DNA from: Brevundimonas intermedia
Lineage (GTDB): Bacteria; Pseudomonadota; Alphaproteobacteria; Caulobacterales; Caulobacteraceae
Direction of reading: 5' to 3'
Assembly: GCF_004614235.1 (NCBI RefSeq)
Contig: NZ_SPVH01000006.1
Coordinates: 124,001-188,000 of the forward strand
Length of the DNA stretch: 64,000 nucleotides
In this document: in pieces, positions 21,695 through 37,261 of the stretch
Layout: each line of letters starts with the position of its first letter
Numbering within the stretch: the first letter of the stretch is position 1
Position numbers and translations under genes: made by a program
The notes under the pieces: generated by a model
What the model saw: only the letters and a program-made list of their open reading frames with translations
Told to the model about the DNA's origin: nothing
Database searches by the model: none

Positions 21695-22417
21695 TCAGGC
21701 CGCGTCTTCCTGCGCCGGCAGGCCGTAGGCCTCCCACAGCGAGCGATCCTTCAGCGCCTTGGCCAGGAAGGCGACATGGGCCGCCTGTTCCTCGGGCGTG
21801 GAGCGCAGCGCCAACGGGCGCGGACGCTGGCCATAGGCGGCGGTTTCCAGCGCGCCGCCGGGCCCGCGACCGACCGGGCCGGACGACAGGTCCAGCACCC
21901 GCTCCTTGCCGCCACGCAGTTCCAGATAGACTTCCGCCAGCAGACGGGCGTCGATCAGGGCGCCGTGCAGCGTGCGCTCGACAAGCGACACCTTGTAGCG
22001 TTTGCACAGGGCGTCCAGCGAGTTGGGCATGCCCGGAAACCGGGTCTGGGCCAGTTTCAGCGTGTCGATCCAGCGCGCCTCGCCCGTGATCGGCCGGCCG
22101 CACAGCTTGTACTCATGGTCGATGAAGTTGCGGTCAAAGGCCGCGTTGTGCGCGATCATCTGCGCGTCGCCGATGAATTCGATCAGATCGTCGGCGATCT
22201 CGGCGAACTTCGGCGCATCCTTGACCTTGTCGTCCGTGATGCCGTGGACCCGGATCGCATCGGGCGGGATCAGCCGCTCGGGATTGACGAAGCGGTGGAA
22301 GGTGCGGCCGGTCGGCAGCAGATCCTGAATCTCGATACAGCCGACCTCGATCAGTCGATCGCCCGTCTTGGGGTCGAAGCCGGTGGTCTCGGTATCCAGA
22401 ACGATTTCGCGCGCCAT
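21695..22417 (-). CDS. dnaQ: DNA polymerase III subunit epsilon (3'-5' proofreading exonuclease)
   Basis: DEDDh exonuclease that proofreads replication. Exo I is LDTETTGFDP at residues 7-16, Exo II is AHNAAFDRNFIDHE and Exo III is HGALIDARLLAEVYLEL with the catalytic His and Asp. The length of 240 residues is normal; the C-terminal tail that binds the alpha subunit is present. It is the last gene of the leftward run ppsR-maf-aroE-coaE-dnaQ and starts 24 bp after coaE. The same set flanks the origin in Caulobacter crescentus. Confidence 0.96.
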   Translation of the reverse strand: MAREIVLDTETTGFDPKTGDRLIEVGCIEIQDLLPTGRTFHRFVNPERLIPPDAIRVHGITDDKVKDAPKFAEIADDLIEFIGDAQMIAHNAAFDRNFIDHEYKLCGRPITGEARWIDTLKLAQTRFPGMPNSLDALCKRYKVSLVERTLHGALIDARLLAEVYLELRGGKERVLDLSSGPVGRGPGGALETAAYGQRPRPLALRSTPEEQAAHVAFLAKALKDRSLWEAYGLPAQEDAA

Positions 22418-22441
22418 GTCCCCTTAATGGAGACATTCGCC

Positions 22442-23074
22442 TCAGTGCGAAAGGCCAGCCGCGCCTTGCCGGGGAGATATCCACGACGGGTCCAGGACGG
22501 TTGCGACGATCGCCTCCACATCCGCTCGCGCCGCGTGGAGGCCACGGCCCGTGTCGATCACAAAATCTGCGCGGGCGCGCTTTTCGGCGTCTGGAATCTG
22601 ACGCGCGAGGATGGCGTCGAACCGTTCGCGCGTCATGCCGGGACGGGCCAGGACGCGCTCGGCCTGGATGGCGGGATCGGCGGTGACGACGACCACGGCG
22701 TCGACGGCCTTGTCGCCCCCCGTCTCGAACAGCAGGGGGATGTCGAGGACCGCCAACCCGGTTCCCGCAGCGCGCGCCGCCTCAAGATCCTCCGCCCGGC
22801 CTTGGGCGACCAGCGGATGGACGATGGTTTCCAGCCGACGAAAAGCGGTCTCGTCGCGGCCCAGCGCCTCGGCCAGGCGGGTTCTGTCCACGGCGCCATT
22901 GACGACCACGCCGGGGAAGGCCTCGCCCACCGGCTCGACCGCCGCGCCGCCAGGGGCATAGAGGCTGTGGACCGCGTCGTCGGCGTTCCAGACGACCGCG
23001 CCCAGTTCGGCGAACATGGCCGTCGTCGTCGACTTGCCCATGCCGATGGAGCCGGTGAGACCGAGCAGGATCAT
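22442..23074 (-). CDS. coaE: dephospho-CoA kinase
   Basis: Final enzyme of coenzyme A synthesis, phosphorylating dephospho-CoA. The P-loop [13 protein letters not shown] lies at residues 5-17, the substrate region [15 protein letters not shown] has the conserved D-D pair, and [13 protein letters not shown] is the lid-proximal motif. The length of 210 residues is typical. The ATG overlaps the aroE stop by four bases (ATGA), so translation is coupled. Confidence 0.96.
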
Positions 23075-23901
23075 GCCGTCTCGCCCAGATGCGCCATCAA
23101 CAGGGCGCGCAAGTCCAGCGGCGGAGGAGGGCGACGAAACAGGGCCTGGAACGACGGCGCCGCCTGGCCGATCAGCATGGCCAGACCATCCACCGTCGGC
23201 AATCCACGCGCCCGCGCCGCTGTCAGGAAGGGGGTGGCCAGCGGCTTGTAGGTCATGTCCATCACCACCGTGCCCGGCGCGATCAATGCGAAGTCGATTT
23301 CCGGCGAGACGCTGAGCGCATTGATGATCAGGGCCGCGCCGTCAAACGCCTCCGCCGCCGCCATGACCCGCACGGACGGTCCAAGGTCGTCAGCCAGGGC
23401 CTGGGCCCGTTCCGGCGACCGATTGACGATGCGAACCTCCGCCCCGGCCTCGACCAAGGCGCCCGACCCCGCGCGCGCCGCGCCGCCGGCGCCCAGCATG
23501 ACCACCGGGCGGCCGGCGACGTCCAGATCCGGCGCCTGCTCCTTCAGACCCCGCATCAGTCCGACGCCGTCGGAGCTGTCGGCGGATACGCGGCCGTCGT
23601 CGAAGGTCAGGATGTTGGCCGAGGACGTCAGCCGCGCCGCCGCCGTCGCCGTGTCGGCAAGGGCGAAGGCCTGTTCCTTGAAGGGCGCGGTGACGTTCAG
23701 GCCCATGATCAGCCCGGCGCGTCCCGCCGCGACCAAGGCCTCGAACCCGGCTGAATCGGCGGGGGCGAAGGGGACATAGGCGCCGTCGATGTCGCCGGCC
23801 GCCAGCCAGGCGTTGTGGATCACGGGGCTGAGCGAATGGGCCACCGGATTGCCGGCGATCCCGGCGACCATGGCCGCGCCCGTTATGCGGTGCGTGCTCA
23901 T
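23071..23901 (-). CDS. aroE: shikimate dehydrogenase (NADP+)
   Basis: Reduces 3-dehydroshikimate to shikimate in aromatic amino acid synthesis. The shikimate-binding [11 protein letters not shown] and the catalytic-lysine segment [11 protein letters not shown] are present at the N-terminus; NADP binds at [12 protein letters not shown] and NRSPERA. The C-terminal motif [15 protein letters not shown] is typical. The length of 276 residues is normal. It overlaps maf by four bases at its start and coaE by four bases at its end. Confidence 0.96.
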
Positions 23902-24494
23902 GCCGCGATCACTCCCGCCCTCCTAAGCTCCGCCAGCACAGGCCAAAGGGGCAGGCCCAGGACGGTGAAATAGTCCCCGTCCACGGCCTCGAACAACTGC
24001 GACCCCAGACCCTCCAGCCGGTAGGAACCGACGCAGGACAGCAGGGCCTGACCCTCCGCCGCCAGATAGGCGTCGAGGAAGGCGTCGGAGAAATCGCGCA
24101 TCCGCATCTCGACCGTATCGACGCCGGACCAGACGATCTGGCCCTTGGTCGCCAGGGCGGCGCCGGAATGGAGCTGGTGCGACTTGCCGCGCATGGCTTT
24201 CAGCCGCTCGCGTACGGCATTCAGCGATTTCGCCTTCGACACCAGGCCGCCATCGAAGGCCAGGGTCTGGTCCGAGCCCAGCACCCAGGCGCTTTCGTCA
24301 TCGCGCGAGACGGCCAGGGCCTTGGCCTCGGCCAGGCGCACCGCCAGGGCCGCCGCATCCAGATCGCCGGACACGGCCTTGATCGCGTCTTCGTCCACGT
24401 TGGCGACCCGCACCTCGAAGGCGACGCCGGCGTTTTCCAGCATGGCGCGACGGGCGGCGCTCTTGGATGCGAGGATGAGACTTTCCGTTTTCAC
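23898..24494 (-). CDS. Maf family nucleotide pyrophosphatase
   Basis: House-cleaning nucleotide pyrophosphatase, possibly acting on dTTP/UTP or m7GTP. The family beginning LILASKSAARRAMLENAGV holds the ASxSxxR motif, followed by VLGSDQTLAFDG with the metal-binding Asp, then LSCVGSYRLEGLGSQLFEAVDGD near the end. In E. coli-type members the set E/R/S residues after the aspartate decide substrate; I cannot assign it here. I start at GTG 24494, which overlaps the ppsR stop (GTGA) and gives MKTESLILAS; the length is 198 residues. Confidence 0.92.
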   Translation of the reverse strand: MKTESLILASKSAARRAMLENAGVAFEVRVANVDEDAIKAVSGDLDAAALAVRLAEAKALAVSRDDESAWVLGSDQTLAFDGGLVSKAKSLNAVRERLKAMRGKSHQLHSGAALATKGQIVWSGVDTVEMRMRDFSDAFLDAYLAAEGQALLSCVGSYRLEGLGSQLFEAVDGDYFTVLGLPLWPVLAELRRAGVIAA

Positions 24495-25360
24495 CAGGTC
24501 GTCCCGATTTTGTGGTTGCGATGTTCGCTGAGCAGGTTGGTGATCGCGGCCGCCGTCTCTTCGACAGAGCGGCGGGTCACGTCGATGGTGGGCCAGCCGC
24601 GCCGTTCGAAGGCGCGCCGCGCCTTGATCGTCTCGTCGCGGACGGCGTCCTGGTCGGTGTAGTTGGACGACTGGTTGGCGTTCAGATTGTCGATGCGGTT
24701 GCGGCGGATCTGCACCAATCGGTCCGGCGACACCGTCAGGCCGATCACCAGCGGCTTCTTCAGCTTCGTCAGCCGCTCGCCGTCTTCCTGACCCGGCACC
24801 AGGGGCACGTTCGCCGCCCGGATGCCGCGGTGCGCCAGATAGATGCAGGTCGGGGTCTTGGATGTGCGGCTGACGCCGCACAGGACGACATCGGCGCCCT
24901 CCAGCTGCTCCAGCGACCCCTGGCCGTCGTCATAGGCCATGGCGAAGTCCAGCGCCGCGATCCGGTTGAAATAGTCGTGGTCAAGCGCGTGCTGAGCGCC
25001 GACACGGGTGGACAAGGCGGCGCCGAGATAGCGCGACATGGCGCCGACCAGGGGATCCAAGGCTCCGATCTGAGGCATGTCCAGCCGGCGGCACCCTTCC
25101 TCCAGCTGTTCGCGCAGCTCTCGATCCACCAGGGTGTGCAGAACGACGCCCGGCGCGGCCTCCACCTCCTGCAGCACCCGGTCCATCTGCTTGGCCGAGC
25201 GGACCAGGGCGTAGATGTGCTCGATGGGGATGACGCCGTCGAAGCGGGCCGTCACCGCCTTGGCCATGGCGTTCAGCGTCTCGCCGGTGGAATCCGACAC
25301 CAGATGCACATGGAAATAGGTGGCCAGACGGGCCGGTCCCGAAGGTCTCGCTGGGCTCAT
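24491..25360 (-). CDS. ppsR: pyruvate, water dikinase regulatory protein (kinase-pyrophosphorylase, DUF299)
   Basis: Bifunctional ADP-dependent kinase and Pi-dependent pyrophosphorylase that switches PEP synthase or pyruvate phosphate dikinase off and on. The P-loop-like GVSRTSKTPTCIYLA is the family hallmark. The N-terminal FHVHLVSDSTGETLNAMAKA and the C-terminal NYTDQDAVRDE also match. ATG 25360 gives 289 residues, the usual length. In Caulobacter crescentus the equivalent gene borders the chromosomal origin opposite hemE, as it does here. Its promoter must lie in the origin region. Confidence 0.93.
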   Translation of the reverse strand: MSPARPSGPARLATYFHVHLVSDSTGETLNAMAKAVTARFDGVIPIEHIYALVRSAKQMDRVLQEVEAAPGVVLHTLVDRELREQLEEGCRRLDMPQIGALDPLVGAMSRYLGAALSTRVGAQHALDHDYFNRIAALDFAMAYDDGQGSLEQLEGADVVLCGVSRTSKTPTCIYLAHRGIRAANVPLVPGQEDGERLTKLKKPLVIGLTVSPDRLVQIRRNRIDNLNANQSSNYTDQDAVRDETIKARRAFERRGWPTIDVTRRSVEETAAAITNLLSEHRNHKIGTTW

Positions 25361-25525
25361 GGGACTGTCGGTCTCCCTGTTGAAAGTTAGGGGACGGCGT
25401 TGGACCGTCGGGGCGCCGTTTTCCTTAGCCCCTCCTCGCCCGGCCCGCGAGCGGGGATGACGGTGGATGGCGGTCCCCATCCGAGGGCGGATCATCCCAA
25501 GGCGGAAAACCGGTTTCTCCATCGC

Positions 25526-25534
25526 TGTGGAAAA
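25526..25534 (-). promoter_or_regulatory. DnaA box
   Basis: On the minus strand this reads TTTTCCACA, matching the relaxed consensus TTWTNCACA with one difference from TTATCCACA. It lies three bases from the CtrA-like cluster. Confidence 0.6.
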
Positions 25535-25536
25535 TC

Positions 25537-25561
25537 CTAACGAAGGGTTAACGACGCTTAA
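25537..25561. promoter_or_regulatory. CtrA-like binding cluster
   Basis: CTAA-N7-TTAA (on the minus strand TTAA-N7-TTAG) at 25537-25551, sharing its TTAA with a second dyad TTAA-N6-TTAA at 25548-25561. CtrA consensus is TTAA-N7-TTAA. In Caulobacter, CtrA bound in the origin represses replication. Confidence 0.6.
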
Positions 25562-25600
25562 CCGTGCTCACAGGCGCAAGTCCCCGTAAACCCTTGCCTG

Positions 25601-25615
25601 TTAAGGTTTCGTTAG
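25601..25615 (+). promoter_or_regulatory. CtrA-like binding site
   Basis: TTAA-N7-TTAG, one base from the CtrA consensus. Its second half (TTCGTTAGG) is the same as that of the minus-strand site at 25537-25551, so the two sites face each other. Confidence 0.6.
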
Positions 25616-25752
25616 GGATTGTCCACCGGCGGGATTGTCGCCCATGGCGTCCCCGTTAAGGATGCGCGGGGCGTGGATATCCGCTTTTGTTCCGCCGGCT
25701 GTCCAGAAGTCATCCCCGCCATTCCACCGCCCTACCTGCCACTTCGAATCTT

Positions 25753-25772
25753 TTAATTCTTAATCTGATTAG
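25753..25772 (+). promoter_or_regulatory. AT-rich block with clustered TTAA half-sites, hemE promoter/unwinding region
   Basis: TTAA at 25753-25756 and 25760-25763, then TTAG at 25769-25772. This is the most AT-rich stretch in the origin region, 40-60 bp before hemE. It could be an unwinding element, a CtrA site, the hemE promoter, or several of these. Confidence 0.4.
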
Positions 25773-25810
25773 GGATTGAGAGCGGGGGGCTGTGACCTTA
25801 ATCGTCCAGC

Positions 25811-26869
25811 ATGACCGATCCGACCCAGAACGCCGATCAGACGCCCTTGATGATCCGGGCTCTCCGAGGAGAGACGTTGGAGCGTCCGCCGGTCTGGTTC
25901 ATGCGCCAGGCAGGGCGGTATCTGCCCGAATATCGCCGACTGCGGGCCGAAGCGCCCGACTTCATCGCCTTCTGCCTGAACCCCGAGATGGCGGCCGAGG
26001 CGACGCTTCAACCGATGCGGCGGTTCGGCTTCGATGCGGCCATCGTCTTCGCCGATATCCTGCTGATCCCTCGCGCCCTGGGCCAGAACGTCTGGTTCGA
26101 GACGGGGGAAGGGCCGCGTCTGGGCGAGATGCCCATTCCCGGTCGGATGGCCGAACTGGCTGCGGGAGCGGGCGAACATCTTTCGGCCGTGGGCGAGACC
26201 CTGTCGATCGTGCGCGCGGCGCTGGAGCCCGAACGGGCCTTGATCGGGTTCGCCGGCGCGCCCTGGACCGTGGCGACCTATATGCTGGACGGCGAACACC
26301 GCACCATCGGCAAGGGCGAACGCGCCCAGGCCCGCACCTATGCTTATGCCGATCCCAAGCGGGTGGACGAGACGCTTGAGGTGCTGGTCGAGGCCACGGC
26401 GCGGTATCTGAAGATGCAGGCGGACGCCGGCGCCCAGGTTCTGAAGATCTTCGAGAGCTGGGCGGAGGGCCTGCCGGACGACCTGTTCGAAAGACTGGTC
26501 CTGAAGCCCCACCAGGCGCTTGTGAAGCGCACGCGGGAGCTAGGCGTCACCGTGCCCCTGATCGGCTTCCCACGGGGCTCTGCGGCGCTTGCCGAGCGGT
26601 ATGCGCACGAGGTCGAGGTCGATGCCGTCGCCCTGGACACCGCCTGCCCGCTGGAGGTCGGAAAACGGGTGCAGCAGATCAAGCCGATTCAGGGCGCGCT
26701 GGACCCGCTGTTGTTGCGCGCCGGCGGCGACCTGCTGGACCGCCGCGTGGATCAGCTGATGGAGGCCTGGGGGCAGGGGCCGTGGATCTTCAACCTGGGC
26801 CATGGCATCCTGCCGGACGTGCCGATCGATCACGTCGAACAGGTTCTGAAACGGATCGGCGCCCAATGA
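25811..26869 (+). CDS. hemE: uroporphyrinogen decarboxylase
   Basis: Decarboxylates the four acetate groups of uroporphyrinogen III to give coproporphyrinogen III in haem synthesis. The signature WFMRQAGRYLPEYR lies at residues 28-41, and the second motif GFAGAPWTVATYMLDG is in the middle. The length of 352 residues is normal. It begins a haem operon hemE-hemH-hemJ with four-base overlaps (ATGA) at both junctions. Its promoter lies within the predicted origin, as in Caulobacter crescentus, where transcription of hemE and replication are linked. Confidence 0.97.
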   Translation: MTDPTQNADQTPLMIRALRGETLERPPVWFMRQAGRYLPEYRRLRAEAPDFIAFCLNPEMAAEATLQPMRRFGFDAAIVFADILLIPRALGQNVWFETGEGPRLGEMPIPGRMAELAAGAGEHLSAVGETLSIVRAALEPERALIGFAGAPWTVATYMLDGEHRTIGKGERAQARTYAYADPKRVDETLEVLVEATARYLKMQADAGAQVLKIFESWAEGLPDDLFERLVLKPHQALVKRTRELGVTVPLIGFPRGSAALAERYAHEVEVDAVALDTACPLEVGKRVQQIKPIQGALDPLLLRAGGDLLDRRVDQLMEAWGQGPWIFNLGHGILPDVPIDHVEQVLKRIGAQ

Positions 26870-27927
26870 CCGAAGCGACCCAAGGCCGCCGCATCGCGGT
26901 GGTGCTGTTCAATCTGGGCGGGCCGGACGATCAGGCCTCGGTCAAGCCGTTCCTGTTCAACCTGTTCAACGATCCGGCCATCATCGGCCTGCCGGGGATC
27001 GTGCGCACGCCGCTGGCCAAGCTGATTTCAAGCCGACGCGAGACCAGCGCCCAGGCCAACTATGCCCTGATGGGCGGGGGGTCGCCCCTGCTGCCGGAAA
27101 CCCGCCGTCAGGCCGGGGCGCTGGAGACGGTGCTGAACGCCCGGCTGTCGGGCGACACGGTGCGGGTCTTCATCGCCATGCGCTACTGGAACCCGCTGAC
27201 CGAGGAGACGGCCGCCGAGGTCGCCGCCTTCGGGCCGGACGAGGTGGTGCTGTTGCCGCTATACCCGCAGTTCTCGACCACGACGACGCAGTCTTCGCTC
27301 AAGGCTTGGAACGCCGCCTACAGCGGCTCGGGCGTCAGCCGCGCCGTTTGCTGCTATCCGGCCGCGGCGGGTTGGGTCGAGGCCCAGGCCCAGGCCATAG
27401 GCGAGAAGCTGGACGAGGCGGTGGGCCAGCCGGTGCGCGTGCTGTTCTCCGCCCACGGCATCCCCGAGAAGCTCGTGACCGGCAAGGGCGACCCCTATCA
27501 GGAGCAGATCGAGACGACGGTCGCCGCCGTGGTCGCGGCAATTGAGGCGCGTCGCGGACCGATCGACCACGCCATCTGCTATCAGAGCCGCGTGGGTCCG
27601 ATGAAATGGTTGGGCCCCTCGACGCCCGAGGCCATCGAAAAGGCGGCCAGGGACGGGGTGGGCGTGGTCATAACCCCCATCGCCTTCGTCTCCGAACATA
27701 TCGAGACCCTGGTCGAGCTGGATATCGAATACGGCGAATTGGCCCATGAAAAAGGGTCCAGTCCCTATTTGAGGGCGCCTGCGGTCGGGATCGAACCCCT
27801 GTTCATCGACGCCTTGGCCGAGGCGGCGGTCAGCGCACTGTCGCGCACCGGGGTCGCGCCCTTCGGTCAAGGCTGCAAGGCGGACTGGAAGGCCTGTCCG
27901 TATCGCAATGGGAGACAGGCGGCATGA
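26866..27927 (+). CDS. hemH: ferrochelatase
   Basis: Inserts ferrous iron into protoporphyrin IX, the last step of protohaem synthesis, at the inner face of the membrane. It begins RIAVVLFNLGGPDDQASVKPFLFNLF, the conserved N-terminus. FSAHGIPEKLVTGKGDPY carries the metal-binding His region, and CYQSRVGPMKWLGP and ITPIAFVSEHIETLVELDIEY follow, the latter with the second metal ligand E. The length of 353 residues fits. The ATG overlaps the hemE stop (ATGA). Confidence 0.97.
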   Translation: MTEATQGRRIAVVLFNLGGPDDQASVKPFLFNLFNDPAIIGLPGIVRTPLAKLISSRRETSAQANYALMGGGSPLLPETRRQAGALETVLNARLSGDTVRVFIAMRYWNPLTEETAAEVAAFGPDEVVLLPLYPQFSTTTTQSSLKAWNAAYSGSGVSRAVCCYPAAAGWVEAQAQAIGEKLDEAVGQPVRVLFSAHGIPEKLVTGKGDPYQEQIETTVAAVVAAIEARRGPIDHAICYQSRVGPMKWLGPSTPEAIEKAARDGVGVVITPIAFVSEHIETLVELDIEYGELAHEKGSSPYLRAPAVGIEPLFIDALAEAAVSALSRTGVAPFGQGCKADWKACPYRNGRQAA

Positions 27928-28391
27928 ATACCTACGACCTGGCGCGCGGCCTGCACATCCTAGCCGTCATCGCCTGGATGGCGGGGTTGCTGTTCCTGCC
28001 GCGCCTCTATGCCTATGACGCCGAACAGCAGTCCAAGTCTGAGCCGTTGAAAAGCGAGATGCAGGGCCTGTTGCGTCTGTGGCAGACGCGTGTGCTGCGC
28101 ATTATCCTAAACCCGGCGATGATCCTGGCCTGGGTGTTCGGCCTGTGGCTGATTCACATTGATGTTTCCGCGCGCGGCCCGGGCTTCCTGGCAGAGCCGT
28201 GGATGATCGCCAAACTGTCCGGCGTCTTCCTGCTCAGCGGCTGGCATGGTTTCCTTTCGGCGCAGAGGAAGAAGATCGCGGCGGGCACCTCGAAATATTC
28301 CAGCAAGTTCTGGCGCATGACCAATGAGGTTCCCTTCGTCCTGGCCATCATCATGGTGCTGTCGGTGACGACCGAGTGGACGTTCGGTTAA
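27924..28391 (+). CDS. hemJ: protoporphyrinogen oxidase HemJ
   Basis: Integral membrane protein of 155 residues with about four transmembrane helices that oxidises protoporphyrinogen IX in bacteria lacking HemG and HemY. The conserved His and neighbouring residues are in LARGLHILAVIAWMAGLLFLPRLYAYDAE. The later segment MLIHxD..KLSGVFLLSGWHGF also fits, as does the C-terminal FWRMTNEVPFVLAIIMV. Clustering with hemE and hemH completes the last steps of haem synthesis in one operon. The ATG overlaps the hemH stop. Confidence 0.93.
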   Translation: MNTYDLARGLHILAVIAWMAGLLFLPRLYAYDAEQQSKSEPLKSEMQGLLRLWQTRVLRIILNPAMILAWVFGLWLIHIDVSARGPGFLAEPWMIAKLSGVFLLSGWHGFLSAQRKKIAAGTSKYSSKFWRMTNEVPFVLAIIMVLSVTTEWTFG

Positions 28392-28594
28392 GCGGCTCCG
28401 CTTGACCTGACCCGCCGCCTGTGGTTCCGCTGGTGTCGAACCGTTTGGCGTCTGCGTCGGCGGTCCCTCTCTTTTCGCGACGCCCGCCGGTTTGATCAGC
28501 GGGAGCCCGTCGCGCCTCCCTCCGGCCTCACGGCCAGACATTTCCAGAGACCTGACGCCGTGCGGTTCCGTGCGCGCGTCCGCGAGCCTGCACC
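28392..28594 (+). promoter_or_regulatory. leader region before rho
   Basis: A 203-bp gap between hemJ and rho. It begins with a short hairpin (AAGCGG-CT-CCGCTT) overlapping the hemJ stop, without a T-run. The rest is C-rich, as expected if Rho binds its own message and limits readthrough; autoregulation is known in other bacteria and only inferred here. Confidence 0.4.
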
Positions 28595-30028
28595 ATGACC
28601 GACGTCCGCGACACCAATCCTGACACCCCCGAGACCGAAGCCGTCGAGGCGCAAGCCCCGACCCATCACGGCGCCGAGCATGAAGCCGGTGAAGTCGCAG
28701 GCGCCGACTCCGGCGTGGACACCACGGCCGACGACGATGACGACGGCGAACCCGTCGTCGCCAACGGCCGCATCACCCTGGCCGAGTTGAACGAGAAGAC
28801 GCCGGCCGACCTGGTCGCCTTCGCCGAACAGCTGGAGGTCGAGAACGCCTCCAACCTGCGCAAACAGGACCTGCTGTTCGCCATCCTGAAGGCCCTGGCC
28901 GACGAGGAAGTCGAGATCATCGCCGACGGGGTGCTGGAAATCCTGCCCGATGGCTTCGGCTTCCTGCGCAGCTCGGACGCCAACTATCTGCCGGGACCGG
29001 ACGACGTCTATGTGTCGCCGTCGCAGATCCGCCGCTTCGGCCTGCGCTCGGGCGACACCGTCCACGGCGCCGTGCGGGCGCCGCGCGAAGGCGAGCGGTA
29101 TTTCGCCCTGCTGAAGGTCGATACGATCAATCTCGAAGACCCCGAGATGGTCAAGACCAAGGTCCTGTTCGATAACCTGACGCCCCTCTATCCCGAGGAG
29201 CGGCTGAACATGGAGATCCAGGATCCGACGCTGAAGGATCGCTCGGGCCGGGTGATCGACATCGTCGCCCCCCTGGGCAAGGGCCAGCGCTGCCTGATTG
29301 TGGCGCCGCCGCGCGTCGGCAAGACGGTGATGTTGCAGAACATCGCCAAGTCGATCGAGAAGAACCATCCCGAGGTCATCCTGATCGTCCTGCTGATCGA
29401 CGAACGGCCGGAAGAAGTCACCGACATGCAGCGCACCGTGAAGGGCGAGGTCGTGGCCTCGACCTTCGACGAACCGGCGACCCGCCACGTCGCCGTCGCC
29501 GAAATGGTGATCGAAAAGGCCAAGCGCCTGGTCGAGCACAAGAAGGACGTGGTGATCCTGCTGGACTCCATCACCCGCCTGGGCCGCGCCTATAACGCCA
29601 CCGTCCCCTCGTCGGGCAAGGTGCTGACCGGGGGCGTGGACGCCAACGCCCTGCAACGGCCCAAACGCTTCTTCGGCGCCGCGCGCAATGTGGAGCAGGG
29701 CGGGTCGCTGACCATCATCGCCACGGCCCTGATCGACACCGGCAGCCGCATGGACGAGGTGATCTTCGAAGAGTTCAAGGGCACCGGCAACTCGGAAATC
29801 GTCCTGGACCGCAAGGTCGCCGACAAGCGCATCTTCCCCGCCATCGACGTTCTGAAGTCCGGCACCCGCAAGGAAGACCTGATCACGCCGAAGGATCAGC
29901 TGGCCAAGACCTATGTGCTGCGCCGTATCCTGAACCCCATGGGGCCGCAAGACGCGATCGAATTCCTGCTCGACAAGCTGCGTCAATCGAAGAACAACTC
30001 GGACTTCTTCCAGTCGATGAACACCTGA
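28595..30028 (+). CDS. rho: transcription termination factor Rho
   Basis: Hexameric RNA-dependent ATPase that terminates transcription. The first 50 or so residues form an acidic extension absent from E. coli Rho (EAVEAQAP to [10 protein letters not shown]). The RNA-binding cold-shock-like domain is then visible ([36 protein letters not shown]). The Walker A motif is [11 protein letters not shown], Walker B is [16 protein letters not shown] and the Q loop follows. The length of 477 residues matches alphaproteobacterial Rho with the extension. Confidence 0.97.
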
Positions 30029-30041
30029 TCCGTCTTCGGAC

Positions 30042-30055
30042 GTTTCACGTGAAAC
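30042..30055. other. parS site 1
   Basis: Perfect 14-bp palindrome GTTTCACGTGAAAC, the universal ParB-binding sequence, in the gap between rho and the DUF6489 gene. It lies about 4.4 kb from the predicted origin. Confidence 0.93.
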
Positions 30056-30068
30056 AGGAGACGGTGCG

Positions 30069-30296
30069 ATGAAGGTCAATGTCGAAGTGGAGTGCACCCC
30101 GGCGGAGGCTCGCGCTTTCCTGGGGTTGCCTGACGTGACCCCGCTGAACGAGGCCATGGTCGCCGAGATGCTGAAGCGGATGGAGACCAATGTCGCCGCC
30201 ATGCAGCCCGAAGAGCTGATGAAGACCTGGACCAGTTTCGGTCTTCAGGCTCAGGACCAGTTTCGCCGTCTGATGGAAGCGGCCGTCAAATCATGA
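30069..30296 (+). CDS. DUF6489 family protein
   Basis: Small cytosolic protein of 75 residues, MKVNVEVECTPAEARAFLGLPDV at the start and FGLQAQDQFRRLM near the end. This is the layout of DUF6489, a short alphaproteobacterial family of unknown function often found near the origin. The region between carries a helical motif (ARAFLGLPDVTPLNEAMVAEMLKRM). It starts 14 bp after a parS site and is separated from mnmE by a 43-bp gap holding a GC hairpin. Confidence 0.8.
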   Translation: MKVNVEVECTPAEARAFLGLPDVTPLNEAMVAEMLKRMETNVAAMQPEELMKTWTSFGLQAQDQFRRLMEAAVKS

Positions 30297-30307
30297 CCCG
30301 CCTGTCT

Positions 30308-30327
30308 CCTCCCCCCATCGGGGGAGG
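30308..30327 (+). terminator. GC-rich hairpin before mnmE
   Basis: Stem CCTCCCCC (30308-30315) and GGGGGAGG (30320-30327) with loop CATC. There is no T-run, so its role as terminator is uncertain. A related hairpin occurs at 36173-36202. Confidence 0.4.
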
Positions 30328-30339
30328 GGGAGGATCCCG

Positions 30340-31647
30340 ATGACCGACACCATCTTCGCCCTCGCGACGCCGCCTGGCCGAGGGGCCATCGCCGTCATCC
30401 GTCTGTCGGGCCCGGCGGTCGAATCGGCCCTGACGGCGCTTGGCGCGACGAAGCTGAAGCCCCGCGTGGCGGCGGTGCGCGATCTGACCTACGCCGGCGA
30501 TCACATCGACCAGGCCCTGGTCCTGCGCTTCGTTGCCCCGAGCTCCTACACCGGTGAAGACTCCGCCGAACTGCATCTGCACGGTGGGCGCGCCGTGGTC
30601 GAGGCGGCCAGCCGTGCCTTGATCGCGCTCGGCGTTCGTCCGGCCGAACCCGGCGAGTTCACCCGCCGCGCCTTCCAGAACAGCCGCATGGACCTGGCCC
30701 AGGCCGAGGCGGTCGCTGATCTGATCGACGCTGAGACCAGCGCCCAGGCCAGGCAGGCCCTGGGACAGTTGGATGGAAAGCTCAGTGAAACCTACGCCGG
30801 TTTCCGCCGCGACCTGCTTCACGCCTTGGCTCTGGTCGAGGCGGAGATCGACTTCCCGGACGAAGAGGTGCCGGACAATCTGGCGCGCACCGCCGGGCCG
30901 GTGCTGGATCGTCTCGCCGACGATTTGCGCCGTGCCGTCGACACCGGGCGACGAGGCGAGCGGGTGCGGGACGGCTATCGCATCGTCCTGATCGGGGAGA
31001 CGAACGCCGGCAAGTCGTCGCTGTTCAACGCCCTCGTCGCGCGCGAGGCGGCCATCGTGACGCCGATCGCCGGCACCACCCGTGATGTGCTCGACGCCGA
31101 TCTGGTGATCGGCGGTTACGCCGTGACCCTGTCCGACACGGCGGGCCTGAGAGAAAGCGACGATCCGGTCGAGGCCGAAGGCGTTCGCCGCGCGCGTCTT
31201 CGGGCGGAACAAGCGGACCTTCGCCTGTGGGTTCGCGCACCCGGGGATCCTGACGGGGTGGCGGCTGACTATGCTCGACCGGAGGATTTGGTGGTCGCCA
31301 ACAAGTCCGATCTTGGAAGCATTCACACCGCAAGCTGTTTGGAGGTTCTGTCGGTCAGCACCGAAAGCGGGCAGGGCTTGCCAGAGCTTCACGACTGGAT
31401 CGCCGCACGGTTGTCGGCCGATCTGGCGGGGGCTGATTTTCCGGCGGTCACGCGTGAGCGTCACCGGCTTCGGTTGAGCGAGGCGCTGTCGGCGGTAACC
31501 GCAGCACGCGTCGCCCTGGATGTTGCGCCGGAAATGGCTGGCGACGATTTGCGGCGGGCGGCAGATGCCTTGGCGCGGGTGACCGGCGCCATCGGGGTAG
31601 AAGATATATTGGGTCAGGTCTTTTCGACCTTCTGCATCGGAAAATAG
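30340..31647 (+). CDS. mnmE: tRNA uridine-5-carboxymethylaminomethyl(34) synthesis GTPase MnmE
   Basis: Partner of MnmG in modifying the wobble uridine of several tRNAs; K+-activated GTPase. The N-terminal folate-binding domain begins [21 protein letters not shown], the G domain has the P-loop [12 protein letters not shown] and switch [11 protein letters not shown] with DTAGLRE, and the C-terminal motif CIGK ends the protein with the catalytic cysteine. At 435 residues it is slightly shorter than E. coli MnmE. Adjacent mnmG completes the pathway. Confidence 0.96.
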
Positions 31648-31654
31648 GACGGGC

Positions 31655-31668
31655 GTTCCACGTGAAAC
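31655..31668. other. parS site 2 (variant)
   Basis: GTTCCACGTGAAAC, one base different from the perfect parS palindrome, located between mnmE and mnmG. Confidence 0.85.
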
Positions 31669-31729
31669 ATCGACGGTTCCTCCAAGCCTGAAGGTGGCGA
31701 AGTGGAGCCAATTGGACTATGTGCGCGGC

Positions 31730-33610
31730 ATGAGTTCTCCCACCGATCTTCACTTCGACGTCGTCATCATCGGCGGCGGCCACGCCGGCTGTGAGGCCGC
31801 AGCCGCGTCTGCACGTGCTGGCGCGCGCACCATCCTGCTGACCCAGAAACTGGAAACCATCGGCGAGATGTCCTGCAACCCGGCCATCGGCGGTCTGGGT
31901 AAGGGACATCTGGTGCGCGAGATCGACGCCATGGATGGGATCATGGGGCGTCTTGCCGACGTGTCGGGCATTCAGTTCCGCCTGCTGAACCGGTCGAAGG
32001 GCGCGGCCGTGCGTGGCCCTCGCAGCCAGATCGACCGGCGTCTGTATCGCGAAGCCATGCAGGCCGAACTGAAGGCGACGCCAAACCTGACCCTGATGGC
32101 GGGCACGGCCGAGAGCCTGATCCTCGACGGAGACCGTGTGGTCGGGGTGACGACGGGAGCCGGAGAGACAGTGCGGGCCGGGGCCGTTGTCCTGACGACG
32201 GGCACCTTCCTGAACGGCGTTATTCATCGTGGCGACGAGAGGATTCCTGCCGGTCGCCACGGCGAGGACCCGTCCACCGGTCTGGCTGCCGATCTGCATG
32301 CCGCGGATCTGATGATGGGACGGTTGAAAACCGGAACGCCCGCACGGCTGGATGGTCGAACCATCGCCTGGGATCGGTTGGAGATGCAGCAGGCGGACGA
32401 GAGCCCGTCGGCCTTCTCCTTCCTGACCGACAAGATCACTGTTCCCCAGATCGCCTGCGGCGTGACCCACACCACCGAAGAGACCCATCGGATCATCGCC
32501 GAGAACCTCGGCGAGAGCGCCGTCTATGGTGGCAAGCTGTCGGGGAGGGGGCCGCGCTATTGCCCGTCGATCGAGGACAAGGTGGTGCGGTTCGCCGACA
32601 AGACCAGCCACCAGATCTTTCTCGAACCCGAGGGCCTGGATGATCCGACCGTCTATCCGAACGGGATCTCGACATCGGTCTCCGAACCGACCCAGCTGGC
32701 CTTCCTGCGCACCATCCCCGGTCTCGAAACCGTTGAGGTGTTCCGCTACGGCTATGCCATAGAATACGACTATGTCGATCCGCGCGAGCTGAGCCCGGCT
32801 CTGGAGGTCAAGAAGCGGCCAGGTCTCTATCTGGCCGGCCAGATTAACGGCACGACCGGATATGAGGAGGCCGCCGCCCAGGGGCTGATGGCGGGGCTGA
32901 ACGCGGCCCGTGCTGTGGCTGGACAAGAGGCGGTCGTCCTGGGAAGGGACCAGGCCTATATCGGCGTGATGATCGATGATCTGGTGACACGAGGCGTGAC
33001 CGAGCCCTATCGCATGTTCACCAGTCGGGCGGAGTATCGTCTGACCTTGCGCTCGGACAACGCCGATCAGCGCCTGACTCCGTTGGCCGTGGAGCTGGGA
33101 ATCGTAGGCGACAGGCGTCGGATGCGGTTCGAAGCCAAGGCGGCGGAGCAGGCCAAGGCAAGCGCCGTTTCACGTGAAACACTGTTCACACCCAACGAAG
33201 CGAGAGCCCTGGGCATCGCCGTGAATGCGGATGGGCGTCGTCGGTCGATGCGTGAACTTCTGGCCTTCCCCGATGTCACACTGGATCACTTCATTGCCGC
33301 TTGTCCGTCCATCGCGGACTGGAGCGCCGAAGTTCGCGAGCAGGTGGAGATCGACGCGGGATACGCCAACTACCTTGACCGGCAAGCACTGGACGCTGAG
33401 GCCTTGCGGACGGAGGAGGGGATGATCCTGCCCCCCGATCTCGACTATGCGGCCATCGGGGGGTTGTCGAACGAGGTGAAGGAGAAGCTGGCGCGGGTCC
33501 AGCCTCGCACCCTGGGTCAGGCCGGACGGATCGAGGGTATGACGCCCGGCGGCCTGACGGCCCTTCTGGCCCATGCGAAGAAGTCGCCCAAAGCCTCGGT
33601 CGCCGCCTGA
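31730..33610 (+). CDS. mnmG: tRNA uridine-5-carboxymethylaminomethyl(34) synthesis enzyme MnmG (GidA)
   Basis: FAD-dependent partner of MnmE in wobble uridine modification. The FAD motif is [14 protein letters not shown] near residue 10, and [24 protein letters not shown] and [23 protein letters not shown] are family blocks. The length is 626 residues with ATG 31730; a GTG at 31694 would add 12 residues. A perfect parS site (33167-33180) is read in frame and gives the residues VSRET near residue 482, within a region that varies in the family. It overlaps rsmG by one base. Confidence 0.96.
33167..33180. other. parS site 3, inside mnmG
   Basis: Perfect GTTTCACGTGAAAC within the mnmG coding sequence, read in frame as VSRET. 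Confidence 0.93.
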
Positions 33611-34242
33611 TGCTCGAAACGGAGAAGGCAGCGTTTCAGGTCAAGGCCGGGGTGACGCCGCAGCAGATGGCGGACCTTGAGGCTTTTCGTATTCGTCTCG
33701 GCGACGCCAATTTAGTGATGAACTTGGTCGGTCCCGACAGCCTGCCGGACTTCTGGAACCGACATGTCTGGGACAGTGCGCAGTTGCTGAACCATGCACC
33801 CGAGGCGCGGACTTGGGCCGATCTGGGGGCCGGCGCCGGGTTTCCGGGCGTGGTGTTGGCGATCCTGATGAAGGGGCGGGAAGGCGCGCATGTTTGGCTG
33901 ATCGACAGTCTGGGCAAGCGGTGCCGCTTCCTGCAGGAGATAGTGGATGCGCTCGATCTGCCGGCGACCGTCATCATCGGCCGGGCTGAGGAGCAGGAGG
34001 TCACGTGCGACATCGTCACCGCGCGAGCCGTGGCGCCGATGGAGAAACTGTTGGGTTATGCACAGCCCTACTTCCAAAGGGGTGCACAAGGTCTGTTCCT
34101 CAAGGGGGAGAGGGCCGAATCCGAGTTGATCGAGGCGCGTAAATCCTGGCATTTCGAAGCTGAACTGGCCCCGTCGCAAAGCGACGTGCGCGGCCGTATC
34201 GTGACAATCCGGAGTCTCCGACGTGCCCGCACAAAGCGCTAG
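33610..34242 (+). CDS. rsmG: 16S rRNA (guanine(527)-N(7))-methyltransferase RsmG (GidB)
   Basis: SAM-dependent enzyme methylating G527 of 16S rRNA; loss can give low-level streptomycin resistance. The motif DLGAGAGFPGVVLAI binds SAM and FWNRHVWDSAQLL is the family signature. VTARAVAPMEKLLGYA follows. The length is 210 residues. The ATG overlaps the mnmG stop by one base, and its 3' end overlaps the parA start by 20 bp, so rsmG and parA are tightly linked. Confidence 0.95.
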   Translation: MLETEKAAFQVKAGVTPQQMADLEAFRIRLGDANLVMNLVGPDSLPDFWNRHVWDSAQLLNHAPEARTWADLGAGAGFPGVVLAILMKGREGAHVWLIDSLGKRCRFLQEIVDALDLPATVIIGRAEEQEVTCDIVTARAVAPMEKLLGYAQPYFQRGAQGLFLKGERAESELIEARKSWHFEAELAPSQSDVRGRIVTIRSLRRARTKR

Positions 34243-35044
34243 AAAGAGACCTGCCCGCGTCCTCGCGGTGTCGAACCAGAAGGGCGGGGTGGGCAAGACC
34301 ACGACGGCCATCAACCTGGGCACCGCCCTGGCCGCCATTGGCGAGCGCGTGCTGATCGTGGACATGGATCCGCAGGGGAATGCCTCCACCGGCCTGGGTG
34401 TTCCACGTGAAACACGCCGGGTCACCATCTATGATGTGGTCGTGGATCAGCGCTCCGTCGACGATGCAGCGGTCCAGACGACGGTTCCCGGTCTTTGGAT
34501 CGTGCCGGCCGACGCCGACATGTCGGGGGTGGAGATCGAGCTAAGCCAGGCCGACCGCCGGTCCTATCGGCTGCGCGACGCCTTGCGGGCGCATGACGAC
34601 GGCCCTACCGCGTATGACTACGTCCTGATCGACTGCCCGCCGTCCCTGAACCTGCTGACGTTGAATGCGATGGCGGCGGCGGATGCGGTGCTGGTGCCCC
34701 TGCAGTGCGAGTTCTTCGCGCTGGAGGGCCTTAGCCAGTTGATGCGGACCATCGACATGGTCAAGCACAGCCTCAATCCGTCGCTGGAAATCCAGGGTCT
34801 GGTTCTGACCATGTATGATCGCCGCAGCGCCCTGTCGGGGCAGGTGGCCAATGACGTGCGCGCCCACTTCGGCGACAAGGTCTATGAGAGCGTCATCCCC
34901 CGCAACGTCCGCGTCGCCGAGGCGCCGTCGTTCGGCAAGCCGGCCTTGATCTATGATCTGAAATGCGCCGGCAGCCAGGCCTATCTGCGTCTGGCCAAGG
35001 AAGTGGTGAAGCGCGAACGCCAGCGCCTGAAGCTGGCCGCCTGA
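34223..35044 (+). CDS. parA: chromosome partitioning ATPase ParA
   Basis: Deviant Walker ATPase that moves the ParB-parS complex of the newly copied origin. The P-loop is KGGVGKTTTAIN after SNQ, with the signature lysine, and DMDPQGNASTGLG and CPPSLNLLTLNAMAAADAV follow. The length of 273 residues is typical. Start is GTG 34223 with GGAG 8 bp upstream. A variant parS (34399-34414) lies inside the gene and codes VPRET. It forms an operon with parB, 25 bp downstream. Confidence 0.97.
   Translation: MPAQSARKRPARVLAVSNQKGGVGKTTTAINLGTALAAIGERVLIVDMDPQGNASTGLGVPRETRRVTIYDVVVDQRSVDDAAVQTTVPGLWIVPADADMSGVEIELSQADRRSYRLRDALRAHDDGPTAYDYVLIDCPPSLNLLTLNAMAAADAVLVPLQCEFFALEGLSQLMRTIDMVKHSLNPSLEIQGLVLTMYDRRSALSGQVANDVRAHFGDKVYESVIPRNVRVAEAPSFGKPALIYDLKCAGSQAYLRLAKEVVKRERQRLKLAA
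34399..34414. other. parS site 4 (variant), inside parA
   Basis: TGTTCCACGTGAAACA, one base from the perfect 16-bp parS palindrome, inside parA near codon 60 and read as VPRET. Confidence 0.87.
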
Positions 35045-35069
35045 GTTTTATTGGAAACGGAACAGTATC

Positions 35070-35960
35070 TTGGCTGAACGACAAAGAGGTCTGGGCCGCG
35101 GCCTGTCGGCATTGATGGGGCAGGACGCCGAGGCGCCGGTGGCGTCTGACGCGCCGGCGCCCGCCGGCGTGCAGCGCGTGCCGATCGAGAGCCTGAAGCC
35201 TAACCCCGATCAGCCGCGCAAGACCTTCCGCCAGGAGGATCTGGAGGAACTGACCGCCTCGATCCGCGACAAGGGCGTGCTGCAGCCGATCCTGGTGCGG
35301 ACCCATCCGGGCGAGGACGGCGTCTGGCAGATCATCGCCGGCGAACGCCGCTGGCGCGCCTCCCAGGCCGCGCGCCTGACCGAGGTGCCGATCGTCATCC
35401 ACGAAATGGACGACGTGGAGGTGTTCGAGGTCGCCATCGTCGAGAACGTGCAGCGCGCCGACCTGAACCCGCTGGAGGAGGCGGAGGCTTACCGCGTCCT
35501 GATGGAGCGGTTCGGCCGGACCCAGGATGCGGTGGCGGGCGTCGTCGGCAAGAGCCGCAGTCACGTGGCCAACACCATGCGCCTGCTGCAACTACCCGAG
35601 CGGGTGCTGTTCTATGTGCGCGAGGGCAAGCTGTCGGCCGGTCATGCGCGGGCTCTGATCAATACGCCGGATCCAGGCCAGCTGGCGGACATCGCCTTCG
35701 TCGATGGCCTGAGCGTGCGCGAGACCGAGGCCTTGGCCCGTCGCGCGGTCGAGGGCCCAAAGCCGGTCAAGGCCAGGTCTGCATCCGCGTCTTCGGGCGG
35801 AGAGGGGGCGGCCGATGTCGTCGCGCTTCAACAGGATCTGGCCGACGCCCTGGGCCTGAAGGTCCAGTTGGCGGACAAGGGCGGCAAGGGCGACCTGACC
35901 ATCCGCTACGGCTCGCTGGAGCAGCTGGACGATCTGTGTCGTCGTTTGATGCGGGGTTGA
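35070..35960 (+). CDS. parB: chromosome partitioning protein ParB
   Basis: CTPase and DNA clamp that loads at parS and spreads to form the segregation complex. It begins with GLGRGLSALMGQ, the box that stimulates ParA. The CTP-binding GERRWRASQAARL and the helix-turn-helix region QDAVAGVVGKSRSHVANTMRLLQLP follow, and a C-terminal dimerisation domain ends the 296-residue protein. The start is TTG 35070, chosen because it gives the conserved AERQRGLGRGLSAL. All four predicted parS sites lie within 5 kb upstream. Confidence 0.97.
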   Translation: MAERQRGLGRGLSALMGQDAEAPVASDAPAPAGVQRVPIESLKPNPDQPRKTFRQEDLEELTASIRDKGVLQPILVRTHPGEDGVWQIIAGERRWRASQAARLTEVPIVIHEMDDVEVFEVAIVENVQRADLNPLEEAEAYRVLMERFGRTQDAVAGVVGKSRSHVANTMRLLQLPERVLFYVREGKLSAGHARALINTPDPGQLADIAFVDGLSVRETEALARRAVEGPKPVKARSASASSGGEGAADVVALQQDLADALGLKVQLADKGGKGDLTIRYGSLEQLDDLCRRLMRG

Positions 35961-35986
35961 ACGGCCGGATGTGCTAGGATTGGCGC

Positions 35987-36169
35987 ATGACCGAAGACAA
36001 CACACCGACCGCCGCCGAAAAGCTGAAACAGGCGCTCGCCGCCAAGAAGGCCAAGGCGGGCCACGGCTTCAACGCCCAGGCCGGCGCCAAGGCTGAAGAG
36101 AAGAGCGTTTCCGCGCGCAACGTCGCCATGGCGCAGCCGGCGTTCCGCAAAGCGTCGAAGCGAGGGTGA
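35987..36169 (+). CDS. small basic Ala/Lys-rich protein of unknown function
   Basis: A 60-residue protein, MTEDNTPTAAEKLKQALAAKKAKAGHGF and so on, rich in Ala and Lys, probably disordered or DNA/RNA-binding. Similar short lysine/alanine-rich proteins are known from other alphaproteobacteria as uncharacterised families, but I cannot name one here. It starts 26 bp after parB and is followed by a strong hairpin, so it is probably expressed as the last gene of the par operon. Confidence 0.65.
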   Translation: MTEDNTPTAAEKLKQALAAKKAKAGHGFNAQAGAKAEEKSVSARNVAMAQPAFRKASKRG

Positions 36170-36172
36170 TGA

Positions 36173-36202
36173 TTTCTCCTCCCCACTCGTGGGGAGGAGA
36201 AA
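36173..36202. terminator. bidirectional hairpin between convergent genes
   Basis: Perfect 14-bp inverted repeat: 36173-36186 (TTTCTCCTCCCCAC) pairs with 36189-36202, with a T-rich left arm and an A-rich right arm. It lies between the end of the small basic gene and the end of holA, and can serve as terminator for both. Confidence 0.75.
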
Positions 36203-36208
36203 ACGGGT

Positions 36209-37261
36209 TCAGAGCCCGAGCCGTCGCGCTCGTCCGGCGATTTCCAGAAGCAGGCGTTCGGCGATCAGTTGATCGGGCATGCCCGTGGTCTTGGTGGCCA
36301 CGTCGGCGGTGTTGATGCTGTCCAGCACCTCGTCCAGCGCTTCGAGCCGCCAAGACCGCGCTTGGCGCAGCATTTCAGCCTCCTGTTTCCAGAAGACGCC
36401 GGCGGCCTTTGCCGCTTCCTTGGCGTTTGCGCCGTTGGCTTGCAAGATATTGATCCGGCGCAGTTTTCCCAGATGCATCGCGGCCGAGCGGACGGCCAGA
36501 ACCGAGGATTCGCCCTCGGCGAAGGCGCGTCTCAGACCCGCTTGCGCCGGGCCAGGCCGGGCGCCGAAGGCTTGTAGCGCGGCGTCGGACAGGGAAGCGT
36601 CCGGCTCGACACCTAGATGATGCTCCAGCGCGTCCATATCCAGCGTCTTGCCGGAGCCTGGGCCGATGAACAGGGCCAGACGCTCGATCTCCTGACGCAT
36701 CAAACCCCGCTCGCGCGGCAGTCGGGCGACGAAACGGTCCAGGGCGTCGGAGGTCAGGCCGACCTTGTCGGCGGCCAGGGCCTCGCGGACCATGCGGGCG
36801 ACATCGCCGGTCTCGTCCTCGTAGCAGACGATGCCGACGGCGCCGTTTTCCTTCTCGGCCGCCTTTCGCAGGGCGGACTCGCGACCCAGCTGATCGGCCT
36901 CGACAACCATCATGGCGTCGGGGTTGTAGCCGCCCTCGGCATGAATCTTGAGCGCGGCGGCGACGGCCTTGTCGACGCCGGGCTTCAGCGTGGACAGACG
37001 GATCCGCACCAGGCGACGGCCGCCCATCAGGGACATGGCCGTCAGGGCCTCTTCCAGCTTCGTCTCATCGCCGTCGATGTCGCTGTCGGTCAGGACGGTG
37101 ACGTTGAAGGGGTCGTTCAGGTCGGGTGTGACCGTCCGGCACAGCACCTCGGCCCGCTCGGCGACGCCGGATCTGTCCTTGCCGTGGATCACCGCCGCCC
37201 GGATCGCCGGATCGGGCGCCTTCAGAAAGCGATCGATCTCGGGGCGTTTGGCCAGGATCAC
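36209..37261 (-). CDS. holA: DNA polymerase III subunit delta
   Basis: Clamp-loader delta subunit that opens the beta clamp. The N-terminal AIRAAVIHGKDRSGVAERAEVLCR leads into the AAA+-like domain; SLMGGRRLVRIRL follows, and the C-terminal helical domain includes AAMHLGKLRRINILQANG. The length of 350 residues is close to E. coli (343). It is the last gene of the leuS-lptE-holA set on the minus strand and overlaps lptE by four bases. The same set sits near the origin in related bacteria. Confidence 0.95.
   Translation of the reverse strand: MILAKRPEIDRFLKAPDPAIRAAVIHGKDRSGVAERAEVLCRTVTPDLNDPFNVTVLTDSDIDGDETKLEEALTAMSLMGGRRLVRIRLSTLKPGVDKAVAAALKIHAEGGYNPDAMMVVEADQLGRESALRKAAEKENGAVGIVCYEDETGDVARMVREALAADKVGLTSDALDRFVARLPRERGLMRQEIERLALFIGPGSGKTLDMDALEHHLGVEPDASLSDAALQAFGARPGPAQAGLRRAFAEGESSVLAVRSAAMHLGKLRRINILQANGANAKEAAKAAGVFWKQEAEMLRQARSWRLEALDEVLDSINTADVATKTTGMPDQLIAERLLLEIAGRARRLGL

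Follow-up and report, generated by a model that had tools for sequence, protein, structure and literature searches.

We have analysed a 450-bp gap between the divergent genes ppsR and hemE in a Brevundimonas genome, and because the same footprints recur in related gaps, we consider it very probable that this gap is the chromosomal replication origin, at the place equivalent to Cori of Caulobacter crescentus. Such an origin would combine weak DnaA boxes, AT-rich unwinding, exclusion of DnaA by CtrA, and segregation through parS and parAB. Taken by itself, the locus would be an ordinary Cori-type origin; the new part comes from its relatives, where the clade of B. diminuta appears to have lost its CtrA sites and carries an array of GGCGCC sites. 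The gap lies in a 64-kb stretch of DNA, called the window here (G000:C6:124001-188000), which belongs to a 3.34-Mb assembly of 7 contigs; the window genome is labelled G000. An origin at this place had been the original prediction, and it was supported: synteny, parS and parAB, the AT-rich block, the DnaA-like boxes and the CtrA sites agree, with conservation in 81 gaps. The features are located as follows.

24491..25360, minus strand: left border of the origin, ppsR of the PEP synthase regulator family (NF003742 at 321 bits, cut-off 225)
25361..25810: predicted chromosomal origin (Cori-type), from synteny, motif statistics and conservation in related gaps
25376..25392: footprint CCTGTTGAA; CTGT[GT]GA stands here in 65 of 81 aligned gaps
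25412..25417: GGCGCC, sole copy in the window's origin (motif count)
25451..25461: GCGGGGATGAC, left arm of an exact 11-bp inverted repeat, weakly DnaA-box-like (repeat search)
25526..25534, minus strand: DnaA-box-like TTTTCCACA, abutting the left CtrA site; TG[GT]GGA here in 64 of 81 gaps
25537..25551: left CtrA-type site CTAACGAAGGGTTAA, 1 mismatch to TTAA-N7-TTAA
25601..25615: right CtrA-type site TTAAGGTTTCGTTAG, 1 mismatch to TTAA-N7-TTAA
25619..25627, plus strand: DnaA-box-like TTGTCCACC, directly beside the right CtrA site; 73 of 81 gaps have TCC[CA]C at this place
25672..25680, minus strand: weakly DnaA-box-like ATATCCACG (mismatch scan)
25709..25719, plus strand: GTCATCCCCGC, right arm of the inverted repeat, weakly DnaA-box-like; TCC[CA]C in 77 of 81 gaps
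25744..25771: AT-rich block that may serve for unwinding or belong to the hemE promoter; no 28-mer of the window exceeds its A+T content
25746..25750: single GANTC (CcrM) site (motif count)
25811..26869, plus strand: hemE (TIGR01464, 358.8 bits against a cut-off of 303), right border of the origin
30041..30056: parS 1 (consensus scan)
31654..31669: parS 2 (consensus scan)
33166..33181: parS 3, inside mnmG
34399..34414: parS 4, inside parA
34223..35044, plus strand: parA-like partition ATPase, matching ParA-type families, all under their curated cut-offs; adjoins parB
35070..35960, plus strand: parB (TIGR00180, 194.7 bits against a cut-off of 58)

The gene context was as predicted. On the minus strand ppsR starts at 25360, the ATG of hemE stands at 25811 on the plus strand, and the two genes read apart with exactly 450 bp between them, both family scores lying over their cut-offs. 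We take hemE to lie beside Cori in C. crescentus as well. The joined HemE and PpsR sequence is 98% identical to that of Brevundimonas sp. G8 (L033), and by sequence the window genome is a Brevundimonas near B. vesicularis and B. mediterranea. From 397 relatives found, 80 Brevundimonas-type loci were kept, and the divergent ppsR-hemE pair is present in all 80, with gap lengths of 416-590 bp. At four other loci (L154 of g16, L159 of g21, L166 of g30 and L210 of g31), hemE was not found adjoining ppsR in the fetched stretch; the origin neighbourhood may be rearranged there, or a contig may end. An Rfam search gave no match over threshold within window positions 22000-38000.

Within the gap, motif counts were compared with 2000 dinucleotide shuffles, which supplied the expectations and P values. 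A DnaA box had been predicted and was recovered: one site, at 25526-25534 on the minus strand, has 1 mismatch to TTATCCACA (0.05 expected, P 0.044), and three DnaA-like boxes occur at up to 2 mismatches (0.73 expected, P 0.035), both counts being above chance. The CtrA-like sites were likewise found, as two near-consensus copies of TTAA-N7-TTAA at 25537 and 25601, each with one mismatch and none exact (0.09 expected, P 0.0065). TTAA itself occurs 7 times (1.43 expected), a count reached in 0 of 2000 shuffles. The AT-rich block was also confirmed, considering that 25744-25771 is 79% A+T and no 28-mer anywhere in the 64-kb window is richer; at a length of 40 bases, 5 stretches in the window are more A+T-rich than the best of the gap. 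The one GANTC site of the original prediction is present (25746), but it gives no evidence for an origin, since the shuffles give more (1.99). W-boxes (TCCCCA) showed no enrichment (1 observed, 0.44 expected, P 0.36). In terms of layout, the two CtrA sites lie inward, about 64 bp apart, with a DnaA-like box on the outer side of each. This mirror pair is also an imperfect inverted repeat, and the CtrA pair is flanked by the exact 11-bp inverted repeat of GCGGGGATGAC at 25451-25461 and GTCATCCCCGC at 25709-25719.

This layout is conserved in the genus. An alignment that took in 81 Brevundimonas gaps showed, among the alignment blocks listed, conserved blocks at the DnaA-like cores and the CtrA sites, and five DnaA-like cores are retained in 60 to 77 of the 81. 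The spacing is fixed as well. In 57 of 58 gaps the left DnaA core precedes the left CtrA site by 8-10 bp, and in 53 of the 59 gaps with a right CtrA site, that site starts 21 bp ahead of the DnaA core TCC[CA]C. Where a mid-gap CtrA pair is present (50 gaps), the distance between its two sites is 60-65 bp in 45 cases, of which 25 have 64 bp. When windows were ranked by DnaA-like boxes times TTAA, the top ones fell on the gap in G000 (384 kb sampled) and in the closed genome G211 (200 kb sampled); in the closed genome G216, whose gap is without TTAA, the gap was not first. Gaps of other Caulobacteraceae genera have a CtrA site near mid-gap in 41 of 49 cases, which suggests one inherited use of CtrA at the origin within the family.

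The window also holds four parS sites (30041, 31654, 33166 and 34399; 0.09 expected) at 4.2-8.6 kb from the gap, and a scan of the 3.34-Mb assembly for GTTTCACGTGAAAC that allowed up to 1 mismatch gave no others. The original prediction had placed parAB and four parS within 10 kb; this is right for the parS sites, all within 8.6 kb, and slightly off for parB, whose end lies 10.15 kb from the gap, just over that distance. All four sites are on the hemE side in G000 and G211, and G216 has a parS-like site on the ppsR side of its gap (G216:C1:3011215, L241).

Based on these features, DnaA would assemble on several weak boxes, and the assembled DnaA would open the AT-rich block adjoining hemE. Phosphorylated CtrA would bind the two mirror-paired sites and, because each of them abuts a DnaA-like box, would exclude DnaA in cells barred from replicating. 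The nearby parS and parAB would then segregate the copied origin. In C. crescentus, according to the available parts of two reports (PMC4468827, PMC4285127), CtrA excludes DnaA by overlapping sites, and the mirror pair is the layout expected if exclusion by overlap also occurs here. The location, the conservation, the fixed spacing and the parS sites are direct observations; DnaA binding, unwinding and CtrA competition at the gap are expected by analogy with C. crescentus.

On the one hand, the gap shares with Cori of C. crescentus, as described in the accessible text of those reports, parS within 8 kb and TTAA-N7-TTAA CtrA sites close to or overlapping weak DnaA boxes (PMC4468827, PMC4285127). 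On the other hand, the window's gap has two CtrA sites, whereas C. crescentus has five; its DnaA-like boxes are TTTTCCACA, TTGTCCACC and ATCCCCG, and its two CtrA-DnaA units form a mirror pair. The G-box of C. crescentus (TGATCCACA) is missing from it even with 1 mismatch allowed, and therefore it was not filed under the C. crescentus subtype of Cori. Origins of marine caulobacters also use CtrA, as here, and this use probably evolved independently, according to the part of PMC4468827 available to us.

The main result against a sharp reading of the origin position is an offset of the strand asymmetry toward the ppsR side. In the sampled stretches, the cumulative GC-skew minimum lies on that side by 65 kb in G000, by 78 kb in G216 and by at least 61 kb in G211, where the sample ends. 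Accordingly, the GC-skew check proposed with the original prediction gave no clean pass; the neighbourhood is right, but in the three genomes sampled the minimum is 61-78 kb away from the gap itself. The octamer GGGCAGGG is strongly biased to the leading strand (112 against 14 copies in the sampled arms of G211 and G216), which is KOPS-like behaviour. Used alone in G000, it splits best between window positions 10263 and 26771, bracketing the gap, with a second-best split just 0.8 units lower at -20345 to -6946. Jointly with GGGGCAGG, the best switch moves 33-41 kb to the ppsR side in G000, G211 and G216, and the gap falls short of this best switch by no more than 3 log-likelihood units in G000 and G211, and by 5.8 in G216. 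In closed G211, there are 6 forward copies of GGGCAGGG before 373 kb, none at 266-412 kb and dense copies beyond. In closed G216 (20 samples), GGGCAGGG and GC skew flip at 2.92-3.06 Mb, bracketing the gap at 3.016 Mb, and again at 1.31-1.45 Mb. Considering that the offsets are at most about 2.5% of the chromosome, they support the neighbourhood and not an exact base. GC skew and GGGCAGGG were dropped as pinpointers since their signals are too broad (offsets of 33-41 kb and 61-78 kb). A set of 12 biased octamers was dropped too; most looked codon-driven, with no stable split, and the best split in the window genome fell 229 kb right of the gap.

These offsets could also mean that the footprints are the promoters of ppsR and hemE under CtrA and DnaA, and that replication begins on the ppsR side, 33-78 kb away. 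It is there that GC skew and the polarity of the two octamers turn in three genomes, and CtrA and DnaA double as transcription regulators, as stated in the available text of PMC4468827. However, the four parS sites are beside the gap and none is elsewhere in the assembly, all eight of the highest-ranking DnaA-like times TTAA windows of G000 overlap the gap, and GGGCAGGG alone brackets it in that genome. The locus also matches the experimentally studied Cori of C. crescentus, as far as the accessible part of PMC4468827 describes it. A promoter scan found no sigma-70-like site, a weak argument as other promoter types are outside the coverage of the scan. We therefore regard a purely transcriptional role as highly improbable, and we keep the gap as the predicted origin.

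Comparison of the related origins showed where CtrA sites are missing. With up to 1 mismatch allowed, 70 of the 71 Brevundimonas gaps that fall outside the B. diminuta clade have such a site (expectation 2.6), as do 48 of 49 from other Caulobacteraceae genera (expectation 4.3). None of the 15 clade gaps does (expectation 0.8), a set first chosen by this very absence (15 of 81 gaps). In a quick HemE and PpsR tree that left the gap out, 14 of the 15 site-less loci form one group with an SH-aLRT of 99, and L099 stands elsewhere. The locus of closed G216 (L212) is outside the tree and was assigned to the clade by its gap, which is 89% identical to that of B. bullata (L056). The members are B. diminuta, B. 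naejangsanensis, B. guildfordensis, B. bullata, B. terrae, B. pishanensis and species-unnamed relatives. For the other genera, 49 of 53 non-Brevundimonas loci were usable, L154, L159, L166 and L210 being left out; L150 and L152 were also left out. The outgroups were hand-picked among the loci listed, with one genome only for genus g24. Since other genera and early Brevundimonas branches have the CtrA site, its loss in the B. diminuta clade would be the simpler reading.

The clade gaps otherwise retain their DnaA-like cores, with 3.5 copies of ATCC[AC]C per gap (0.9 expected). CtrA was recovered from 4 of 5 clade genomes searched, the fifth (G005) being 66% complete. Compared with the window's CtrA, the four proteins show 7-11 differences, only one of which (N144D, in 2 of 4) falls within residues 125 to 205, so that by its sequence CtrA is intact in the four clade genomes read. 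Relocation of the CtrA sites into the flanking genes was rejected, as the 500 bp outside the gap hold shifted sites in 0 of 14 clade loci and 0 of 66 other loci. GANTC is raised in the clade (5.6 per gap, 2.55 expected), with 5-8 per gap in the diminuta/bullata part and 2-3 in the terrae/pishanensis part (about 2.5 expected), and was rejected as a CtrA replacement since the latter part shows no rise. Exact TTAA-N7-TTAA sites number 5-8 per genome in eight whole genomes, against 1-5 in the control; the one exact site common to all eight was set aside as a CtrA target, for it sits at the beginning of a coding sequence (in the four genomes where this was read), and a codon effect is the probable cause. 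In the ctrA promoter, a 1-mismatch CtrA site stands in all 4 clade genomes compared and in none of the 3 others, numbers too small to use.

In place of the CtrA sites, the clade gaps are crowded with GGCGCC. They contain 8.53 copies per gap (15 gaps, 0.52 expected) and 6-11 in each, against 2.11 in other Brevundimonas (0.50 expected) and 1.37 in other genera (0.37 expected). Among the inspected GGCGCC triplets listed from G216, G030 and G025, where such triplets are frequent elsewhere (40-47 per genome), most seem to be coding. L051, placed by the tree as a weakly supported (73) neighbour of the clade, has 7 GGCGCC, and of the mid-gap CtrA pair it has the left site only.

In the available excerpts, GGCGCC is reported as the target of the orphan m5C methyltransferase CCNA_03741 of C. 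crescentus, for which these excerpts give no restriction partner (PMC7987155); m5C itself was not detectable in that study. CCNA_03741 is also classed as solitary in the accessible part of PMC12907096, which states that the role such solitary cytosine methyltransferases play in Alphaproteobacteria is essentially unknown. In our searches, one PF00145 family was found in 25 of 25 genomes, 6 of 6 clade genomes included, with 47-72% identity to the member from G233 (genus g32); it is the sole PF00145 match in 6 of the 25, and one match (G007:C176:15141) was left out. Where gene and origin share a contig (17 genomes), the distance between them is 104-399 kb in 16, the exception being G239 with 1159 kb; a second copy in G216 lies at 1202 kb. 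Because it is the only family found in all genomes and keeps this consistent distance, we infer that it is likely the ortholog of CCNA_03741. From its locus number, CCNA_03741 presumably lies near the origin in the C. crescentus numbering. The GGCGCC specificity of the clade's candidate would follow from this orthology together with what the available text of PMC7987155 reports.

As a hypothesis, we propose that in the B. diminuta clade CtrA at the origin may have given way to methylation or binding of GGCGCC. As a rewiring within one genus, the clade would have lost the CtrA-DnaA mirror pair, kept CtrA and built a GGCGCC array that gates DnaA through methylation after fork passage, as a cytosine-methylation counterpart of Dam and SeqA; this full scheme is speculative and, in our estimate, rather unlikely. 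For this clade only, the likeness to E. coli oriC, with its GATC sites, Dam and SeqA, is an analogy in that a palindromic methylation target is crowded in the origin. The oriC of E. coli holds about 11 GATC, whereas the GGCGCC of the clade would, by hypothesis, bear m5C from a solitary cytosine methyltransferase. We know of no SeqA-like reader for GGCGCC.

There is about an even chance that the CtrA sites were lost because initiation runs by other known means (DnaA level, RIDA, CcrM and GANTC) and that the GGCGCC cluster has no replication role. In C. crescentus, strongly reduced CtrA affinity at all five sites only mildly perturbed the cycle in the laboratory, according to the part of PMC4468827 at hand, and the clade gaps carry 5.6 GANTC against 2.55 expected. 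Moreover, L099, a Brevundimonas MAG outside the clade that is also without CtrA sites, has only 2 GGCGCC, and thus the loss need not accompany the array. However, the gap of G216 is the densest 450 bp for GGCGCC in the 640 kb sampled (11, next 7). In B. pishanensis (G023), 5 of the genome's 9 GGCGCC pairs fall in the gap, where a reversed control gave 5, and the gap has 3 triplets, a number equal to the genome's total; GANTC, for its part, is not raised in the terrae/pishanensis part (2-3 per gap). A further reading, which we hold to be possible but doubtful, is that the cluster is a binding-site array (GGGCGCCG followed by two A/T) for some origin-specific protein, with methylation irrelevant. 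The second and third bases after GGCGCC are A/T in 93% and 85% of 117 sites in clade origins; for 346 GGCGCC elsewhere in these loci, oriented by the same rule, the shares are 56% and 34%, but that rule itself favours some flanks. The commonest start-to-start distance in clade origins is 21 bp (25 of 103), but helical phasing is weak (resultant 0.34 at 10.5 bp). To our knowledge, no protein binds such a GGCGCC array.

The comparison of the clade makes testable what CtrA at the origin is for, as the sites are gone naturally and CtrA is kept. Named strains are available on both sides, with B. diminuta, B. bullata and B. naejangsanensis on one and B. vesicularis, B. mediterranea and B. bacteroides on the other. 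If gating by methylation of the GGCGCC array is true, the orphan GGCGCC methyltransferase gains its first candidate role. Among the literature matches listed, no title or abstract dealt with origin sequences of the B. diminuta clade or with GGCGCC at an origin, and none of the papers listed showed an experiment on the organism of the window. The marine caulobacter MCS10 reportedly has an origin with a single CtrA site overlapping a DnaA box. Caulobacter origins were compared by Shaheen et al. (2009), whose set may include Brevundimonas strains. In B. pishanensis, the PF00145 methyltransferase match has an exact CtrA-type site (G023:C10:256100-256114) about 140 bp from its 3' end.
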